Assembly: GCA_022763165.1 (NCBI GenBank)
Contig: JALEGO010000718.1
Span: 1 to 39,473 of the forward strand
Origin: Flavobacteriales bacterium
GTDB lineage: Bacteria; Bacteroidota; Bacteroidia; Flavobacteriales_G; JALEGO01
Reading direction: 5' to 3'
Length of the DNA stretch: 39,473 nt
Shown here: piece by piece, positions 1 to 10,262 of the stretch
Layout of the letters: the number at the start of each line of letters is the position of its first letter
Position numbering within the stretch: the stretch's first letter is position 1
The notes under the pieces: model-generated
Told to the model about the DNA's origin: nothing
Database searches by the model: none
Seen by the model: only the letters and a program-made list of their open reading frames with translations
Made by a program: the position numbers and the translations under genes

Positions 1-2630
1 ACCCCAGCATCTCCTAATTTGATAACAGCTGTCATTAGACTGTTGATGCCTGCAGTATCAAGAGTAATATCCACGATAAGACTCGGGTCAAGAGCATTAA
101 ATTGTGGCGTCTCACCTTTAGCGTGTGTCAAACCATAGTTTAATAGAATGGCACTCAAATCATTTTGATCTATGAGTCCATCACCATTACAATCCGCATG
201 CTTGTAATCAACGCCATTTACAAAATTCGTACCCCAATCGTTTCCAAACTGCCCTACCCAATTGATAGTAGCATTTGGACGTACAGGACCCGTGCTGCCA
301 TAACCAATTCCAATTGGAAGAATATCAACTATATCCGCAACACCATTGGCATCACAATCTCCTGGCCAGATGGTATCGGACAGATTAATGCATGTTGAGT
401 AATGACAAGAATCAACATCAATAACAGTCACACAATAAGTCCCTTGTCCAAGCGGTAAAACAACGGCTGTGTTTTGACCATTAGACCACTGATAGCTATA
501 TGGCGGATTTCCTCCAAATGGCATTGCAGTCAATGTGTTATTCACAGTGTCATGAGTAATGGTCACTGTTAGATTGCAGCAGTTGGTATCTTGAGCAACA
601 TAAACTGTATCATAAATTGAACAACCATTTGAATCTGTAACATACAAGAGAAACCAATCTTGACTTGGGTCTGGGACAGTATCAATTGTAGCGTTCAACG
701 CATTAGGGTTATTGATCACAATCGCAGGGCCTTGTGCATGGTACCACTGGTACGTGAAAGGCGCTGTACCTCCTACGATACTCAACCCTTGTGACAAATC
801 AATACCAGCTGTATCACATGTGTAGATATAGTGTGATCCTGCTGTTCCATTGTTTTGGAATGCAAAGCCAGAACATGGAGAGACATTCACATTGATACAG
901 GCTGTATCACTACAACTAGCAGTATCCAATACAGTCACACAATACGTGCCCGACACTGGAAACGGACCATGATAAGGTTGAGTCAAAATAGATCCATCAC
1001 TCCAAATGTACGTTGGAAATCCTTGATTTCCGCTCACATGAACCAGCGCGTCATTTGCTGTTGTTTGAGTAATACTATCAATTTTAATTGTGCAATTTAA
1101 CGAACCACAGCCGGTATCCTGAACAACATAGACTGTATCATAAATAGAACAACCATTTGCATCCGTAACGTATAATAAGAACCAATCTTGACTGGGATCC
1201 GGAACAGTATCAACTGTCGCATTAAAAGCCGTATCATTATTTATGACTATTGAGGGCCCTTGGGCATGATACCACTGGTAGGTGAAAGGTGCAGTACCTC
1301 CAACAATGCTCAATCCTTGTGATAGATCGATACCAACTGAATCACAAGTATACACCCAATGACTGCCAGCTGTACCATTATTTTGGAAGGCAAATGAAGA
1401 ACAAGGAGAAGAAGATGTATTTAAGCTATCCTGCAATCTGACAAACGGAATGAGTGTAGAACTGGTAGCAGTGTAAATTGTACAATGACCAGCTACCACA
1501 AAACCACCATTTGTTTCATAACACGTAAATGGATGAAATACCGTGTCGGGGTTTCCAATTAATTGATCATTATATTCGTACAAAAGTCCACCATGGCTGT
1601 CCAACTCAATAATTCCCCCATATTGCCCGGTACTTACAATAATCGAATTGTATGAGCTTGTTTTCACATTCGAAATGGCGTTATGCGATCCGTTTGAGGA
1701 GTTAATCGTTACAATACTATCCAAAACAGTATTTCCTGATTGTATTTTTAGCATTCTAGAAAAATTTCCAGGGCCCCCATTGGATGCGCTAATCACATTC
1801 ACCACTACATCCGAATTAATCTCAATAGCAGATAAAGTAGAATACCCAACACCAGCCTGATTATAGATCTTGTGTGTCAAAGTTGAATCACCATTGCCAT
1901 CCAATTCCAGCACCCAATTGAAATGAGTTTGCCATAAATTACTCGTAACCACTTTTGCAGAAAGTAGGTAATTTCCAGATTGGCTTTGAGATACATACTG
2001 ACTCAAAACACTGTATCCAGGAAACCCATACGACTTGTTAACCAAAACATTCCCAGAAATATCAGTTTTAATAAAAGCAACCTCGTCATATGTACCTGAA
2101 CTGTTTATTCTATTGCAAGTAAAAGCTATGTCCCCGCTTTGAGTAAGAACAGAATGTGAAATACGAACATTGTTACTCCACACGCTACTTAAACTAAGAC
2201 CCAAGGTATTCATTGAAATAAGATTACCATTCTGATCTGTTCTCAAGATTAAACCATCAAAAGTTTGGCCTTGTTGAACAAGTGTTAATACTATTAGATC
2301 ACCATTTGTTGGATCTTCATGAATCCTAGGCCCTTCATACCAACCCAAAACAACTGAACTAGCACTGTAATTATAATCTTTAACCCAAATTGTATCACCA
2401 TTTAAATCCACTCTTGAAATCGTGATATCATTTTGTCCAAATCCAGAAACTCCAACATGAGAATTTGATGATGGAATCATATCGAAATAATGCGACTGTC
2501 CATCTCCTAAGTCATGAAGCTTTTCCCATTGCGCGAAGCCAATCTGAGTAAAGACAAGCATAAGTACTAGAAGGTTTAGCACCTTGCTTAAACCTGTCAT
2601 TTTTAAGTATTTGTTGTTTTCAATTTTCAT
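1..2630 (-). CDS. Large secreted repeat protein, 3' end truncated by the window edge: signal peptide, tandem PKD/SprB-like modules, dockerin-like EF-hand loops, start of a cohesin-like domain
   Basis: Not in the ORF track because it has no stop inside the window. Reverse-strand ATG at 2628-2630 gives MKIENNKYLKMTGLSKVLNLLVLMLVFTQIGFAQWEKLHDLGDG... I checked that the frame is constant at about 857, 1385 and 182. It contains GDCDANGVADIVDILPIGIGYGSTGPVRPNATINWVGQ...DYKHADCNGDGLIDQNDLSAILLNYGLTH, closely matching the 4234-6831 protein. Confidence 0.85.
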   Translation of the reverse strand, partial: MKIENNKYLKMTGLSKVLNLLVLMLVFTQIGFAQWEKLHDLGDGQSHYFDMIPSSNSHVGVSGFGQNDITISRVDLNGDTIWVKDYNYSASSVVLGWYEGPRIHEDPTNGDLIVLTLVQQGQTFDGLILRTDQNGNLISMNTLGLSLSSVWSNNVRISHSVLTQSGDIAFTCNRINSSGTYDEVAFIKTDISGNVLVNKSYGFPGYSVLSQYVSQSQSGNYLLSAKVVTSNLWQTHFNWVLELDGNGDSTLTHKIYNQAGVGYSTLSAIEINSDVVVNVISASNGGPGNFSRMLKIQSGNTVLDSIVTINSSNGSHNAISNVKTSSYNSIIVSTGQYGGIIELDSHGGLLYEYNDQLIGNPDTVFHPFTCYETNGGFVVAGHCTIYTATSSTLIPFVRLQDSLNTSSSPCSSFAFQNNGTAGSHWVYTCDSVGIDLSQGLSIVGGTAPFTYQWYHAQGPSIVINNDTAFNATVDTVPDPSQDWFLLYVTDANGCSIYDTVYVVQDTGCGSLNCTIKIDSITQTTANDALVHVSGNQGFPTYIWSDGSILTQPYHGPFPVSGTYCVTVLDTASCSDTACINVNVSPCSGFAFQNNGTAGSHYIYTCDTAGIDLSQGLSIVGGTAPFTYQWYHAQGPAIVINNPNALNATIDTVPDPSQDWFLLYVTDSNGCSIYDTVYVAQDTNCCNLTVTITHDTVNNTLTAMPFGGNPPYSYQWSNGQNTAVVLPLGQGTYCVTVIDVDSCHYSTCINLSDTIWPGDCDANGVADIVDILPIGIGYGSTGPVRPNATINWVGQFGNDWGTNFVNGVDYKHADCNGDGLIDQNDLSAILLNYGLTHAKGETPQFNALDPSLIVDITLDTAGINSLMTAVIKLGDAG
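604..866 (-). repeat. Intragenic repeat copy 2 (period 528 bp)
   Basis: Near-identical to 1132-1394. Encodes FAFQNNGTAGSHYIYTCDTAGIDLSQGLSIVGGTAPFTYQWYHAQGP...-like sequence in both copies; offset is exactly 528 bp and in frame. Confidence 0.85.
1132..1394 (-). repeat. Intragenic repeat copy 1 (period 528 bp)
   Basis: See 604-866. Confidence 0.85.
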
Positions 2631-2762
2631 AATGATACTTTTTCTACATTACAAATATTCAAAGTAATCTGTTCTCAAAAAAATACATTTTACAACTATT
2701 ATACATTTTTTATTATATTTATATAATTAATTATCAATTATTTAATTATAAAATAATACAAT

Positions 2763-4175
2763 ATTTTTAACTCAAAAGGCATAGAAATACTTAGGAAATT
2801 TGACAATATCCAGTTCAAAAAGCTCGGAAAATACATCAGATCAGAGTACTTTGGAGTAAATTCTTCACTTCAAAAACTACACGAGATTGTAGCATCACAT
2901 TTCCCAAGACTCCACCTTCTTCCAAAAAAGGAACTATTGTTTCATCAAATATTCAACGAACCATATGATAACACTAAGTTGCACCTCACTTTGAGTCGCT
3001 ACTATAAGACTATTGAGAACTTTTTATCACACGAGACTTTAATGGCTGATGAAGTACTAAGCAACCTTTTGACACTGGAGTCGCTTAAAACCTTTGATTC
3101 CGAAAAACACTTTTCTGGGAAGAAAAAAGCCATTCAAAAAAACTTGCAAAACCGCGACATACCTTCAAACGTGCGTTTGTACGGCAAACTTACTCTAGAG
3201 GAAAAGTCCTTTGAATACTTTAGCCGACTTCAAAAGCCAGAATCCGTTCAGGATCTTCAAGAGCTGTACGATAGTATTGATGAGCACTTTCTTTATCTAA
3301 AACTTAAATATGCTTGTGAATTATTGTCCAGAAAACAAATATTAGATCAAACCTTTGACCTTTCCTTTTTGGATGCCATTTTGGATTATGGAGCCCAAAA
3401 TTTCAGCCAAGAAAGCAAGCCTTTGATTTATGGTTTTTATCGCTTAGTGGAGCTCGTTATGCATAATAGAGACACGGATTTTAAGTTTTTAAAAACCTTT
3501 GTGCAAAGCAAAGCCTTCAATACATCTGACAAAAGAGTAATCTATGGTTTTCTCATTAATTTTTGCATTAGGATGTCCAATCTAGGTAATGTAATTTATC
3601 TAGAGGAGTTATTCTCAATCTACGTGCAGCTTATTGATGAAGGTCTTCTTGTCCAAAACAACAAATTGTATTTATATGATTACAAAAATGTTGCAACAAC
3701 GGCCATCCGACTTAAAAAGTTCGATTGGGTTAAGGCCTTTACAGAAAACTACACAAATTACATCCCGCACAAGGATCGCCCATCTGCTTTAGCCTATAAT
3801 TTGGCGAGAATTGATTTTTATCAAGAAAAATACAAATCAGCCATTCGCGTATTATCTGGAGTAGATTACTCTGATCTTTACTACGAACTTGGCTCAAGAA
3901 GTTTAATCATCAAAATTTATTTTGAACTGGACGATTATAGCCTTTTCGAAGCCAACTGCAATTCATTCAAAATCTTTTTAAAACGACTTAAAATTGGCTC
4001 AGAATATCAAAGAAAAATCTACAATAACTTTATAAAACACAGCATTCGATTATTCAAAATCAAAGAAGGCAATACTAAAAGTAAATCTCAATGGATTGAG
4101 GAAATTCAAAAGACTCAAGAGATCGCTGACCGCACATGGGTTTTAGAAAAGATGGAAACCCTAAAAGAACCTTAG
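2763..4175 (+). CDS. Alpha-helical protein of unknown function, paralog of 6983-8395; ORF track starts at the internal TTG 2937, but homology reaches 2763
   Basis: In-frame codons 2763-2936 translate to IFNSKGIEILRKFDNIQFKKLGKYIRSEYFGVNSSLQKLHEIVASHFPRLHLLPKKEL and align with the paralog N-terminus MKNKKIIKILQQLSHEDVKELSKFIHSDYFSCPKLARKLYDTIIRYYPNFKESLINKER. In-frame stop TAA at 2754. Confidence 0.75.
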   Translation: MFNSKGIEILRKFDNIQFKKLGKYIRSEYFGVNSSLQKLHEIVASHFPRLHLLPKKELLFHQIFNEPYDNTKLHLTLSRYYKTIENFLSHETLMADEVLSNLLTLESLKTFDSEKHFSGKKKAIQKNLQNRDIPSNVRLYGKLTLEEKSFEYFSRLQKPESVQDLQELYDSIDEHFLYLKLKYACELLSRKQILDQTFDLSFLDAILDYGAQNFSQESKPLIYGFYRLVELVMHNRDTDFKFLKTFVQSKAFNTSDKRVIYGFLINFCIRMSNLGNVIYLEELFSIYVQLIDEGLLVQNNKLYLYDYKNVATTAIRLKKFDWVKAFTENYTNYIPHKDRPSALAYNLARIDFYQEKYKSAIRVLSGVDYSDLYYELGSRSLIIKIYFELDDYSLFEANCNSFKIFLKRLKIGSEYQRKIYNNFIKHSIRLFKIKEGNTKSKSQWIEEIQKTQEIADRTWVLEKMETLKEP

Positions 4176-4183
4176 TGCAAAAA

Positions 4184-4215
4184 AGAAAAGCCCCTTTGAA
4201 TAAAGGAGCTTTTCT
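4184..4215. terminator. Bidirectional intrinsic terminator between convergent genes
   Basis: Hairpin AGAAAAGCcCCTTTgaatAAAGGaGCTTTTCT between the stops at 4175 (+) and 4234 (-), with A/T flanks on both sides. Confidence 0.75.
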
Positions 4216-4233
4216 GAAATGAACTTAAATAAT

Positions 4234-6831
4234 TTATTCTAAAATCAACTTCTTGTGAATCATTTGTTCATCACCAACAATGATCACATTGTAAATTCCA
4301 TTTTCAAGATGATCAACAGAAATGATATTCTCATCTGTAGCTTGAAATTGTAGAACCGCTTGACCAATCGCATTGTAGATATACACATCGGCTATTTGCA
4401 TATTGGTGGTGAGTCTGATGACATCTTTAGCTGGATTGGGGTAGAGCATAACATCCATATTTTCCTGGTAATCAGAGATTCCAAGCGCTGGATCATCTGT
4501 AATTACAATAGAATCATTGATTAAATTAACATTGACAATTGATTCATCATTGGAAATGATTCTAACATTGGATAACATCAATTTAAGTGTTTCGTAAATT
4601 GTTTGCTTACCTGTTAAATCGTCAATTGTAAAGATCTCAATTGAAGCTATTTCGCCCATCCCTGAATTGTTCGCTTGATCAGTTCTAGTTAACCCAACAT
4701 CAACTCTACCTGCACTTGGTAAATTCTTATCAAGAGCAATCATGTTACCAGGATTGCTTATGTTTCCGAGCCATGAGTTGTTATAACTTACAGTTACAGA
4801 ACTTGTATCAATCAATGCTGGGTCGTAATTTAAGGAGAATGTAACTCCATAAATATTATTTGCAGCTTGAACATTATCACCTAGTTTTACAGAAGCCGTT
4901 ACTAAGGCATTTTCACCAATCGTATCCGCTGTTACATCAACAATCAAACTTGGATTACTCATGATAAAATCCTCACTTCCCTCTCCTTTTGAATGTGTCA
5001 AGCCGTAGTTGAGCAAGATCGCACTCAAATCATTTTGATCAACAATACCATTACCGTCACAGTCAGCATGTTTGTAATCAGCACCCGTGATGATTGAAGT
5101 CCCCCAATCTGTAGCCGGCTGCCCGACCCATGTTAAAGAAGCATTTGATCTCACTGGACCTGTTGAGCCATATGCAATACCGATAGGCAAAATATCAATA
5201 ATGCTTGCAATTCCATCTGAATTCGCATCACCTGGCCACACATCGTACGTACAACTTGTATCTAAGACTACAGTATCATGAGCCACGCAACCATTAGCAT
5301 CTGTTACTGTGAGGTAGACCGGAGAAACCGTAGTACAAACAGTCGCTATCGGATTTGAGGCTGTTGTATCATCCAAAGATCCGCAGGTGCCATTAAATGA
5401 CCATTCATATGTGTAAGGAAGTGTACCACCAGTGGCTGTAGGAGACCCTCCCAATTGTGCTGTGTAACCCAAAAGAGAGCTATTTACACAAAGCGTATCG
5501 TTAGCAGCAGCAGCAGCTACTAAATTACAAGGAACTTGATTTACGCAAGTAGTGTCCAAAATAACTGTATCATGAGCCACACAACCATTAGCATCCGTTA
5601 CTGTGAGGTAGACCGGAGAAATAGAAGTACAAACCGTTGCAATAGGATTTGCGGCTGTTGTATCATCTAAAGACCCACAAGAACCATTGAATGACCACTC
5701 ATATGTATAAGGAAGTGTGCCGCCAGTCGCTGTTGGCGATCCTCCTAATTGCGCTGTGTAACCGAAAAGAGAACCATTAACGCATAGTGTGTCTTGTGCA
5801 GCTGCAGCAACAGTAATGTTACATGCCGCAGGATTAGGGAATCTATATACACCTTCAGATCCTGACGGAGACCCATAGTCTGTCCCAATATAAATATACT
5901 TTTCGGTTACGTCAAAGCTTGTTATTGTGTCCTGAAAAAATGGGATTGAATTCCAGGAATTCCCTCCATCAAGAGTGTAAAACACATCAGCACCAGTGAA
6001 AGTTCCATCACATGCAGCGATGAAAAGCTCATCTTCATCTGTCGAAGCCATTTGTTCATTTTTCCTTGGGAAATTATTTGGCAACATCCATAGGACTGGC
6101 TGATTCGTTGAAGCATTCCAGGCAGAACCATTATTAGAAGATATGTACAATACAGAGTTGGGATCATCACTCAAAATGTAAGTTTTATTGTCATCATGAT
6201 GCAATCCCCTAACACCTCCAGAGTTTACCGATGTCCAACTCGCTCCATTATCATTGGAAATTTGACAATCAGTCGCATACAATCCTCCGATCAATGTATT
6301 GGTATTATGATTTTTTTCAATATGTGAAATATCGTTGGGTGTAGTGATACTGCTCCAGGTTAAACCTTGATCAGCTGTTCGAAAAATATGATTCGCGGAA
6401 CTGTGGTGGAATAAAGCTACCAAAGTATTAGGATCCTCAACGAGCAAATCTATTGTAAAGCCACCACCACCAGGCCAACCCAAGTTAATCCCTGCAGAGG
6501 ACCATGTTGAGCCTCCATCACTAGTTTTATATATTTCTCCAATATTACTAACAACAAAGCCAATATTTGCATCTATAAACTCCGCTTGTAACAAGGATCC
6601 ATTAATCGTTCCAGCTGGAGCTAAAACACTCCAATTATCACCATAATCAGATGTGAAATGGATAACGTTCGGTCCAAAGGCCCAACCTAAGCTGTCCAAA
6701 AAAGTTACCTCACTGGTGTTGTCCACAAGTATCTGTGAGAACTGAGCCTTCAGTCCCTGGACAGCCAATAGTACGGTAAGAGTAAGTATTAGTTTTGTCT
6801 TCATATCAATATAATTTAGGGTTGTTTTCAA
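4234..6831 (-). CDS. T9SS-secreted protein: signal peptide, BNR/YCF48-like repeats, two tandem PKD/SprB-like repeats, dockerin-like loops, cohesin-like domain, type A C-terminal sorting domain
   Basis: Likely start is ATG 6804 (MKTKLILTLTVLLAVQGLKAQ signal peptide) rather than TTG 6831. FRTADQGLTWSSI / YTLDGGNSWNSI BNR-type motifs; DANSDGIASIID and DCDGNGIVDQND loops; C-terminus MDVMLYPNPAKDVIRLT...VDHLENGIYNVIIVGDEQMIHKKLILE is typical of T9SS type A sorting domains. Confidence 0.9.
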   Translation of the reverse strand: MKTTLNYIDMKTKLILTLTVLLAVQGLKAQFSQILVDNTSEVTFLDSLGWAFGPNVIHFTSDYGDNWSVLAPAGTINGSLLQAEFIDANIGFVVSNIGEIYKTSDGGSTWSSAGINLGWPGGGGFTIDLLVEDPNTLVALFHHSSANHIFRTADQGLTWSSITTPNDISHIEKNHNTNTLIGGLYATDCQISNDNGASWTSVNSGGVRGLHHDDNKTYILSDDPNSVLYISSNNGSAWNASTNQPVLWMLPNNFPRKNEQMASTDEDELFIAACDGTFTGADVFYTLDGGNSWNSIPFFQDTITSFDVTEKYIYIGTDYGSPSGSEGVYRFPNPAACNITVAAAAQDTLCVNGSLFGYTAQLGGSPTATGGTLPYTYEWSFNGSCGSLDDTTAANPIATVCTSISPVYLTVTDANGCVAHDTVILDTTCVNQVPCNLVAAAAANDTLCVNSSLLGYTAQLGGSPTATGGTLPYTYEWSFNGTCGSLDDTTASNPIATVCTTVSPVYLTVTDANGCVAHDTVVLDTSCTYDVWPGDANSDGIASIIDILPIGIAYGSTGPVRSNASLTWVGQPATDWGTSIITGADYKHADCDGNGIVDQNDLSAILLNYGLTHSKGEGSEDFIMSNPSLIVDVTADTIGENALVTASVKLGDNVQAANNIYGVTFSLNYDPALIDTSSVTVSYNNSWLGNISNPGNMIALDKNLPSAGRVDVGLTRTDQANNSGMGEIASIEIFTIDDLTGKQTIYETLKLMLSNVRIISNDESIVNVNLINDSIVITDDPALGISDYQENMDVMLYPNPAKDVIRLTTNMQIADVYIYNAIGQAVLQFQATDENIISVDHLENGIYNVIIVGDEQMIHKKLILE
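5271..5517 (-). repeat. Intragenic tandem repeat copy 2 (period 294 bp)
   Basis: Near-identical to 5565-5811; encodes AAAAANDTLCVNSSLLGYTAQLGGSPTATGGTLPYTYEWSFNGTCGSLDDTTASNPIATVCTTVSPVYLTVTDANGCVAHDTV. Confidence 0.85.
5565..5811 (-). repeat. Intragenic tandem repeat copy 1 (period 294 bp)
   Basis: Same repeat as 5271-5517, in frame (98 codons apart). Confidence 0.85.
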
Positions 6832-6969
6832 ATTTTCGCTTTTCTACATTACAAATATGACCACTATTACTTGGTAAAAAAATTACATTTAATCAAATTT
6901 GTATGAAAATAATAAAACATTTTTGACACAATTATTGTGTAATTTATTAATAAACAATTATTTGTAAAA

Positions 6970-6977
6970 TACATTTG
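6970..6977 (+). promoter_or_regulatory. Candidate Bacteroidota -7 element (TACATTTG) just upstream of the 6983 start
   Basis: Matches TAnnTTTG; only 5 nt before the TTG start codon. No well-placed -33 TTG found. Confidence 0.35.
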
Positions 6978-6982
6978 TAGTA

Positions 6983-8395
6983 TTGAAAAACAAAAAAATT
7001 ATCAAAATATTACAACAATTGAGTCATGAGGATGTAAAAGAACTTAGCAAATTCATACATTCTGACTATTTTTCCTGCCCAAAATTAGCTCGAAAACTCT
7101 ATGATACCATAATCAGATACTACCCAAATTTTAAAGAAAGTTTAATCAATAAAGAGCGAATATGGGCCAAGCTTTTTGACGAGCATTATAATGATCAAAA
7201 AATGAGGCTGCTTACCAGTGATTTATACAGGCAAGTTGAGCACTTTTTGATCTACCAATCTTTAAAAAAAGATAACCTTTTACAAGATCAGTTACTTATC
7301 AAACGAATCGGTCAGATGAACCTTCCTTCTGCATTCCAATCCACACTAAACAGCCAGAAAAAAAAGCAAAAAAACTCAGGTTATGGTCAAATTGAATTAC
7401 TACACAGCAATCTGATAATAGAAGAAGAGACTTTTGAATTCAAATCAAGAACAGAACCTCAATCTTCGATTCAAAACCTTCAGCGGATTTCAGACCTTAC
7501 TGATGAGTATTTTCTTTCCATGCAATTAAAATATTCATGCGAACTCTTAAACAGAGAGAAAATACTTTCGCAAAGCTACGAATATGAATTGATCAATGAA
7601 TTGATCACATTTATCCCAACGTCAAGTTATATCGATGTTCCTTTAATTCATTCCTACTATCACATATTCTTAATGCTAAAAACTGACGATGAACGGGAGT
7701 TTTTTTATCTGAAAGACAAACTGACCGAGTACCTAATGGTATTGAATTCAAAAGAACTGAGAGACATCTATGTTTTCCTACTTAACTATTGCATTCAACA
7801 ATCAAACAAAGGCAATGCGAAGTACCTTAAAGAGCTTTTTGATTTATACAAGATTCTTCTGGATCATCGTATTATAATTGAGGGTAATTACATGCACCTC
7901 TATGATTTCAAAAACATTTCCACCGTAGCATTGCGTGTGAAAGCATACAACTGGATTTCAAACTTCACTAATGAATACACACCTTATTTAAGTCTTCAAT
8001 ATAGAGAAAGCGCCATTGCCTTTAACATGGCCCGAATTAGTTATCAGAAAGGCGCATTAAAAGAAGCCACGAAATTTTTATTAAACGTAGACTTCGCAGA
8101 TACATATTATGAGATTGGTGCGAGATCTCTTCTTATTAAAATCTTTTTTGAGGAGGATAATTATGACCTTTTCATAGCCAATGTTAATTCTTTCAAACAA
8201 TACATTGACAGAAACAAATCTGTAACAGACCATCAAAACAAGCTACATTCCAATTTTTTGAAATGGATCAAGCGGCTTTATAAAGTGAAAGAGGGTAAGC
8301 GAAGAAATTTTCGAAAATGGCATGATGAATTTAGAAATGACATTTTAATTGCTGACAAAACTTGGCTGGAAGACAAATTCGTAGAATTATCTTAA
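6983..8395 (+). CDS. Alpha-helical protein of unknown function, paralog of 2763-4175
   Basis: 470 aa ORF with TTG start; full-length similarity to the other copy, including C-termini KWIKRLYKVKEGKRRNFRKWHDEFRNDILIADKTWLE vs KHSIRLFKIKEGNTKSKSQWIEEIQKTQEIADRTWVLE. Confidence 0.85.
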   Translation: MKNKKIIKILQQLSHEDVKELSKFIHSDYFSCPKLARKLYDTIIRYYPNFKESLINKERIWAKLFDEHYNDQKMRLLTSDLYRQVEHFLIYQSLKKDNLLQDQLLIKRIGQMNLPSAFQSTLNSQKKKQKNSGYGQIELLHSNLIIEEETFEFKSRTEPQSSIQNLQRISDLTDEYFLSMQLKYSCELLNREKILSQSYEYELINELITFIPTSSYIDVPLIHSYYHIFLMLKTDDEREFFYLKDKLTEYLMVLNSKELRDIYVFLLNYCIQQSNKGNAKYLKELFDLYKILLDHRIIIEGNYMHLYDFKNISTVALRVKAYNWISNFTNEYTPYLSLQYRESAIAFNMARISYQKGALKEATKFLLNVDFADTYYEIGARSLLIKIFFEEDNYDLFIANVNSFKQYIDRNKSVTDHQNKLHSNFLKWIKRLYKVKEGKRRNFRKWHDEFRNDILIADKTWLEDKFVELS

Positions 8396-8408: not shown

Positions 8409-10262
8409 ATGAGACCTTCATTACTAATATTCAGCTTTATACTATTCCTGTTCTATTCTTGTTCAAATGTTGAAAAGGACAGCAGCCCAAATCTATATCA
8501 TAACCTTATTGCATTTGAAGCTCTTCTTGAGAACTTTCCAGATTCTGCTGCTGTAGTCCTGAAAAAGGACTCTTCCAAAAGCATTTGTTATTTCATTAAT
8601 AGAGCAACTTACTTATCCTACGATTACCGCGAAAATGAAGGCATTTCACTTCTAGATTCTATCATATCAAATAAGAATTACACCCATCAAGAGAGTAGAG
8701 CACTGCGCATGAAAAAAGCTCTTTTCTTGGCACGAGAAGATTTAGAGGACTCCAACACGCTTATTGAAAGTTGTCTGAATGAATTGGGCCCGACTACTGA
8801 CTCTTCTGAAATAATATTTGCAATGTACAAGCGAGCCAGAATTAACGCTGCACAACCTTCAGGTAAGCCTCTAAACACAATCAAACTAGCAAGAAAGGCC
8901 TTAGAAAGAACACCATCTAAGGATTCAGTTATTATATGGAACCTCAATATGCTCATTGCAACCGCCTATGGAGATATTGGTATGTTGGACTCGTGTTTAA
9001 AATTTAGCTTAAATGCAACTAAATCCGTTAGCAATGACCATTATCCGATTTACGTTTCTGGCTCCAGCACCTTACTTGGGGATGTTTTCTTTCAAAAGAA
9101 ACAATATAACAATGCCCTCAGGCACTTAAAAAATGCACTTCTATCAAATGACCAACTTCATCTTTCAGGAGTACACATTAACATAGCATATTGCGCAGCA
9201 GAATTGAACGATTTAAGCCTCATGAAAGAACATTTGTCTAAAGCAGAGGCCATTGTTTCCAAATCCAAAAGCAAATACTTAAAGTCACTTCTGAATATTG
9301 CTCTTAGCCGTTACTATACCAAATCTAAAATGCCAGAAGAAGCTATTTCTTTTGCAAAAAAGTCTGAAGAGATAAACAAAGCAAACAAGGACTCAATCGG
9401 TTTATGCTATGATTATATAGAGCTGGGCAAACTCTATTTAGATCAAAAACTTTTCGACAAAGCAAATTTGTACTTATCTAAAGCACTTTCAATCGCTCAA
9501 AATGTAGGAAGCCTTAGAGAAATTGTTCCTATCAAAGAGTCCATTTTCAAAATGGAAAAGAGTAAAGGCAACTATAAACTTGCTGTAAACATATACGAAG
9601 ACTTAGAACTACTAAAAGATAGTATTACTCAACTAGAGTCTGTTGAGTATACACAGAATCTAGTTACTGCTTATAATGATGACCTTCACAATATACGAAT
9701 GGCAAAAAAACAGGAAGAAATCGTTTCCATAAAACAAAAAAGCAGAATTAAGGATCTTATGATAATCATCTCTTTCTTCGCTATCGCCATCATCATTACA
9801 ATTGGAATTATCATTAGATTGAAGGCCAAGGAGAGACTTATAAAGCAACAACAAAGAATAAAGGAACAAGAGCTTACAACTCAAAACTTAAAGCAAGAAG
9901 TTCTTGCCAAAACCAATATAATCAAACAAAAGAATCAGCTTATCGAGCGAATTTCTGATTCTAGCGAAGAATTCCGTTCAAATATTACTGATAAATTGGA
10001 TTTAGACAAAGACTGGATGCAGTTTATGGCAGAGTTTGAATTACTCTACCCAAGTTTTATCAGTAACCTTGATCAGCATTTCTCAGGAATGACAAATACA
10101 GATAAGAAAGTTTCGGCTCTCATCAAACTGGGCTTATCCAATAAGGAAATTGCAAACCTTATGAGCATTACAGAAAACGGAGCAAAAAAAGCTAAACAAA
10201 GATTGAAATCTAAACTCTCTCAAGAGACCTCTAGCCTAACTGATTTAATTACTAGTATTTGA
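8409..10262 (+). CDS. TPR-repeat membrane regulator with C-terminal LuxR-type HTH
   Basis: N-terminal hydrophobic segment with lipobox-like FLFYSCSN; helical TPR-like repeats; single TM (DLMIIISFFAIAIIITIGIIIRL), coiled coil, and C-terminal TDKKVSALIKLGLSNKEIANLMSITENGAKKAKQRLKSKL. Starts 14 nt after the 6983-8395 stop. Confidence 0.8.
   Translation: MRPSLLIFSFILFLFYSCSNVEKDSSPNLYHNLIAFEALLENFPDSAAVVLKKDSSKSICYFINRATYLSYDYRENEGISLLDSIISNKNYTHQESRALRMKKALFLAREDLEDSNTLIESCLNELGPTTDSSEIIFAMYKRARINAAQPSGKPLNTIKLARKALERTPSKDSVIIWNLNMLIATAYGDIGMLDSCLKFSLNATKSVSNDHYPIYVSGSSTLLGDVFFQKKQYNNALRHLKNALLSNDQLHLSGVHINIAYCAAELNDLSLMKEHLSKAEAIVSKSKSKYLKSLLNIALSRYYTKSKMPEEAISFAKKSEEINKANKDSIGLCYDYIELGKLYLDQKLFDKANLYLSKALSIAQNVGSLREIVPIKESIFKMEKSKGNYKLAVNIYEDLELLKDSITQLESVEYTQNLVTAYNDDLHNIRMAKKQEEIVSIKQKSRIKDLMIIISFFAIAIIITIGIIIRLKAKERLIKQQQRIKEQELTTQNLKQEVLAKTNIIKQKNQLIERISDSSEEFRSNITDKLDLDKDWMQFMAEFELLYPSFISNLDQHFSGMTNTDKKVSALIKLGLSNKEIANLMSITENGAKKAKQRLKSKLSQETSSLTDLITSI

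Follow-up and report, generated by a model that had tools for sequence, protein, structure and literature searches.

A family of predicted all-helical proteins, here named H, is encoded head-to-head with secreted cargo genes of the type IX secretion system (T9SS). The two genes of a pair are inherited together and share an intergenic region in which a constant element adjoins the partner promoter and a pair-specific word recurs at the start of H. On balance, and reading from sequence, we favour the view that H binds nucleic acid and acts locally as an autoregulatory, pair-specific regulator of its secreted partner. Two such pairs lie in the window, by which we mean the whole 39,473-nt stretch of DNA analysed, from Flavobacteriales bacterium GCA_022763165.1 (5.5 Mb, the source genome in the following).

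The gene calls, for which the longest ORF was taken, agree with the first-pass annotation on two divergent units of the same layout. Secreted partner 1 (3..2630, minus strand) faces H1 (2763..4175, plus strand, 470 aa), and secreted partner 2 (4234..6831, minus strand) faces H2 (6983..8395, plus strand, 470 aa, TTG start). H1 and H2 had been described as full-length paralogs without a nameable domain. They align end to end with 36% identity over 464 of 470 aa (305 bits), far better than chance, and neither showed a match of any weight in Pfam, NCBIfam, PHROGs or PADLOC. The PDB gave no sequence match for H2, defence-system and phage libraries gave no meaningful match for H, and no publication describing the family was found in the openly accessible literature. 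At its expected start H1 has no ATG, GTG or TTG; the frame is opened by ATT 2763, which aligns with the family Met, and a conventional ORF call of H1 therefore begins at 2937. The same situation, ATT at the position of the family start Met and no ATG, GTG or TTG there, was seen in three H paralogs of the source genome (window 2763; L013 near 2073; L014 near 3131), and five other paralogs of this genome start with TTG or GTG. Leaderless or rare start codons were considered as a trait of the family and rejected, ATG being used by 69 of 81 GTDB copies; starts other than ATG, ATT among them, are peculiar to the source genome. One further copy, C345a (L015 6029-7423), is interrupted by an in-frame TGA, which may reflect recent pseudogenization or a fault in the assembly. 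In the window, H2 is followed after 13 nt by a gene on the plus strand (8409-10262) that may share a transcript with H2; its product is a TPR protein that has a transmembrane segment and, at the C-terminus, a weak LuxR-type helix-turn-helix.

An AlphaFold2 model of H based on 61 sequences showed an all-helical solenoid (pLDDT 92.7, pTM 0.83), in line with the label "helical" given to these proteins at first reading. Comparison of the full model with the PDB by Foldseek gave no match below E 0.001; the best, non-significant matches were PPR and TPR solenoids (best E 0.017). The N-terminal 131 residues modelled alone also gave a confident fold (pLDDT 94.5), for which no PDB fold match was obtained (best E 2.7). 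No recognisable DNA-binding domain was detected in H by Pfam, NCBIfam or fold comparison. H thus resembles the PPR and TPR helical-repeat proteins in being an all-helical solenoid with its best fold matches among them, but it lacks a significant sequence or fold match and is unattached to any described PPR or TPR family: H1 and H2 matched none of the repeat families, and TPR models give weak scores for a few members (TPR_1 in 3 of the 61 aligned members). The H proteins are basic, with a median pI of 8.7 versus 6.1 for other cytosolic ORFs, and conserved K/R residues run along the length of the C-terminal half.

Secreted partner 1 (876 aa) comprises a signal peptide, SprB/PKD-like repeats, a dockerin-like module (9-371, minus strand) and the start of a cohesin-like part; its C-terminus is not seen because the gene runs off the contig end. 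In partner 2 (865 aa), the signal peptide of which probably starts at ATG 6804, BNR/sortilin-like repeats are followed by SprB-like, dockerin-like (4867..5250, minus strand) and cohesin-like parts and by a T9SS type A sorting domain (4240..4446, minus strand; TIGR04183, 42 bits against a cut-off of 23). The C-terminal module said to be common to both partners could be delimited: it consists of the dockerin-like part and the beginning of the cohesin-like part (40% identity over 394 aa, about 66% in the dockerin-like part), and its WPGDAN dockerin-like portion is common to many H-paired cargo proteins. Pfam Por_Secre_tail, an independent model, was present in 48 of 48 partners scanned, which had been pre-selected as tail-positive with a home-made model, built from the source-genome partners with one round of iteration. 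The majority consensus of these 48 proteins combines, as in the window, the WPGDAN dockerin-like module with a cohesin-like stretch and the tail. The partners thereby share the tail of T9SS type A cargo (Por_Secre_tail, TIGR04183) and differ from such cargo generally in that the subset next to H often carries a dockerin/cohesin-like module before the tail. Some members match Cohesin and Dockerin_1 weakly; in contrast to cohesin/dockerin systems, however, both modules are fused in one T9SS surface protein, which is not a cellulosome.

In the source genome all 16 H genes stand head-to-head with a signal-peptide gene, as judged by a crude hydrophobicity test. The count of T9SS tails was restricted to complete neighbours with a length of at least 150 aa. 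Among 80 GTDB loci with 65 testable copies, the divergent neighbour of H carried the tail in 61 of 65 cases, compared with 3 of 203 genes located elsewhere in these stretches and not adjoining H (Fisher p 1.7e-51), so that the enrichment beside T9SS-secreted genes proposed as a check was indeed found. The corresponding fractions were 10/12 versus 0/37 other genes in the source genome and 11/14 and 4/5 versus 2/62 and 1/17 in two Phaeodactylibacter genomes. In a distant genome of another family of the phylum (G312; loci L147, L150 and L158) the pairing with T9SS genes is looser and tandem H genes are present (14/29 versus 1/55), and neither the dockerin-like module nor an excess of the constant element was seen there. 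Downstream neighbours of H have a T9SS tail or signal peptide far less frequently than divergent ones. Orthologous H genes retain orthologous partners over the full cargo length; in a Saprospiraceae group, for example, H is about 50% identical and the partners are 34-64% identical.

Two copies of the cassette had been reported, which holds for the window; the copy number in the genome is 16. The impression that other Bacteroidota carry several copies of the family proved correct, with 16 H matches in Phaeodactylibacter xiamenensis, 13 in P. luteus, about 52 in the 3.7 Mb of G312 and 40 in the sister of that genome, a few matches in the latter two being fragments. A GTDB scan reported 313 relatives, of which the best 80 come mostly from Saprospiraceae and Chitinophagales metagenome assemblies; these loci are a similarity-ranked sample, most of it from metagenome assemblies.

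H marks a subset of the T9SS cargo, since the source genome has at least 150 T9SS tails and at most 16 H genes. The dockerin-like module occurs 19 times in the source genome, and 11 of these occurrences are H-paired. A twelfth copy, on C802, begins with TQPYAPQYM, the residues at which the H-paired partner on C549 is cut, and is therefore probably the rest of that partner gene; for four of the remaining copies the upstream DNA is intact but contains no H, and the other three are truncated at a contig end. Genes with the module lie inside H loci in 7 of 7 cases in P. luteus and in about 7-8 of 10 in P. xiamenensis.

Anchoring the intergenic regions on the partner promoter revealed the constant element. 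In the shared divergent regulatory regions of pair 1 (2631..2762) and pair 2 (6832..6982), TACAAA-N28-TACATT adjoins the partner promoter at 2650..2689 and 6850..6889, respectively. The spacing from TACAAA to TACATT is exactly 34 nt in 35 of 54 anchored, well-scoring regions and is conserved across species. The exact pattern occurs four times in the 5.5 Mb of the source genome, each time at an H pair and twice in the window, and the reversed control pattern has two exact matches. A second form of the element gave six exact matches, all at H pairs, to which one mismatch adds two more H pairs. When one mismatch was allowed in a search of four genomes, the counts were near the reversed-pattern background in the source and 52-copy genomes and above it in both Phaeodactylibacter; from this search exact matches alone were used. 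The element was not found before module-bearing cargo genes without an H neighbour. Separately, both Phaeodactylibacter genomes have an exact copy (L191 6292; L192 6047) upstream of an orthologous exodeoxyribonuclease-like gene with no H nearby.

Each pair has a word of its own, located about 12-15 nt past the beginning of TACATT, and this word is repeated with unchanged orientation at the start codon of H or shortly ahead of it. Examples are TTTTTGGATTTTTTA (L088) and AATCGTGGAAT (L061), and in the source genome TTTCTGTATGAAA, ATTTGTCCT and AATGTAGCA. With the two compared segments kept non-overlapping, the match score is 8.9 within pairs versus 6.8 across pairs (permutation p about 5e-5), and 14 of 49 pairs exceed the 97.5th percentile where 1.2 are expected. 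The within-pair match is also significant in the source genome alone (p 6e-5). About one pair in three shows the twin word clearly; in the two pairs of the window it is weak. In pair 1 the partner-side word TATTATACA (2697..2705) is matched loosely by AATAATACA (2752-2760), directly ahead of the H1 start; in pair 2 ATTTGTA (6897..6903, 13 nt after the TACATT start) is found again at 6960-6966 and 6973-6979, immediately before the H2 start. Because the word is short in pair 2 and loose in pair 1, the window alone would not have sufficed to reveal it. Word similarity correlates weakly with H similarity (Mantel rho 0.11, p 0.03).

Taken together, the divergent arrangement, the element at the partner promoter and the repeated word particular to each pair support the earlier suggestion that the helical protein works with or regulates its partner, and allow it to be narrowed to "probably regulates". 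A role as local autoregulator is suggested by the constant core at the partner promoter and the pair-specific word beside both genes, and a nucleic acid as the probable target by H being a pair-specific, basic product that stays in the cytosol. H, a basic cytosolic solenoid, would recognise the pair-specific word in the shared intergenic DNA. At the copy located at a fixed place upstream of the partner core promoter it would act as an activator (or repressor), and the copy at its own start would limit H synthesis. With many pairs per genome, each with a different word, every cargo gene could then be controlled separately. Counting against this reading are the missing DNA-binding domain and PDB fold match, the weakness of the twin word outside about a third of the pairs, its slight correlation with H similarity, the looser pairing in G312, and the two element copies remote from H in Phaeodactylibacter. 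This arrangement recalls the divergent local autoregulators of LysR-type logic, in which a single intergenic region serves both regulator and target and has sites close to either promoter (the H sites being candidates); H differs from these in being a long helical solenoid without a helix-turn-helix or named DNA-binding domain.

The target could instead be RNA. H would then be a PPR-like RNA-binding solenoid that binds the start-codon word in its own mRNA and feeds back on its own and perhaps its partner's translation, which we consider unlikely. Such a protein would fit the designed PPR RNA-binding proteins found as best, non-significant fold matches (E about 0.02, TM about 0.3), the H-side word that touches or overlaps the start codon, and the unusual start codons of the source genome. 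Foldseek similarity of this kind is, however, generic for helical repeats, and the partner-side word is fixed relative to the partner promoter and upstream of it, so that it is not part of the partner mRNA. DNA is therefore the likelier target of H.

We think it quite unlikely that H serves in the cytosol as a dedicated chaperone or export pilot of its T9SS cargo, with the shared promoter merely balancing both products. TPR-like solenoids often bind peptides, H and cargo are co-inherited, and the H-linked cargo proteins are large and diverse, all of which would favour a chaperone. Yet all that the partners have in common is the T9SS tail, joined in many of them by the dockerin/cohesin module, and at most 16 H genes would face the at least 150 tails of the source genome. 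Chaperones are moreover usually co-directional with their clients, and the pair-specific twin word would be left unexplained. That word could also be accounted for if the twin copies were duplicated H promoter elements read by sigma factors and the function of H were unrelated. In pair 2 the H-side word does overlap a TAnnTTTG-type -7 box (6970-6977), and both pair 2 copies point towards H. This origin nonetheless seems very unlikely to us, as the words differ among pairs of one genome but match within a pair, and many of them (AATCGTGGAAT, TTTATCGGA, TTTTTGGATTTTTTA) misfit any common -7 box. Finally, a selfish or horizontally spread cassette, its layout a passive outcome of descent and duplication, would suit the patchy distribution of H, which was found in 0 of 40 relatives belonging to this order and in 12 of 396 genomes sampled across the phylum, but is barely credible, because different H genes often have partners that are unrelated apart from the T9SS tail, so that the layout must have been kept or re-formed many times, and because the conserved divergent orientation and geometry argue for selection on it.

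Returning to H as a regulator of its own partner, a more far-reaching proposal, which we put forward tentatively and rate as possible rather than probable, is that H represents a new class of sequence-specific DNA-binding helical-solenoid regulators without helix-turn-helix, with tens of paralogs per genome, each reading its own word and controlling its own T9SS surface protein, which would amount to a private-switch system for the surface repertoires of Bacteroidota. Secreted surface proteins are very numerous in Bacteroidota that use the type IX secretion system, and, to our knowledge, little is known about the switching of individual ones. The H family offers a one-to-one regulator candidate for many of them, and its words form a visible candidate operator code. 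Should H bind DNA, the natural variation of H and word over hundreds of pairs would allow a new recognition code to be derived from sequence.
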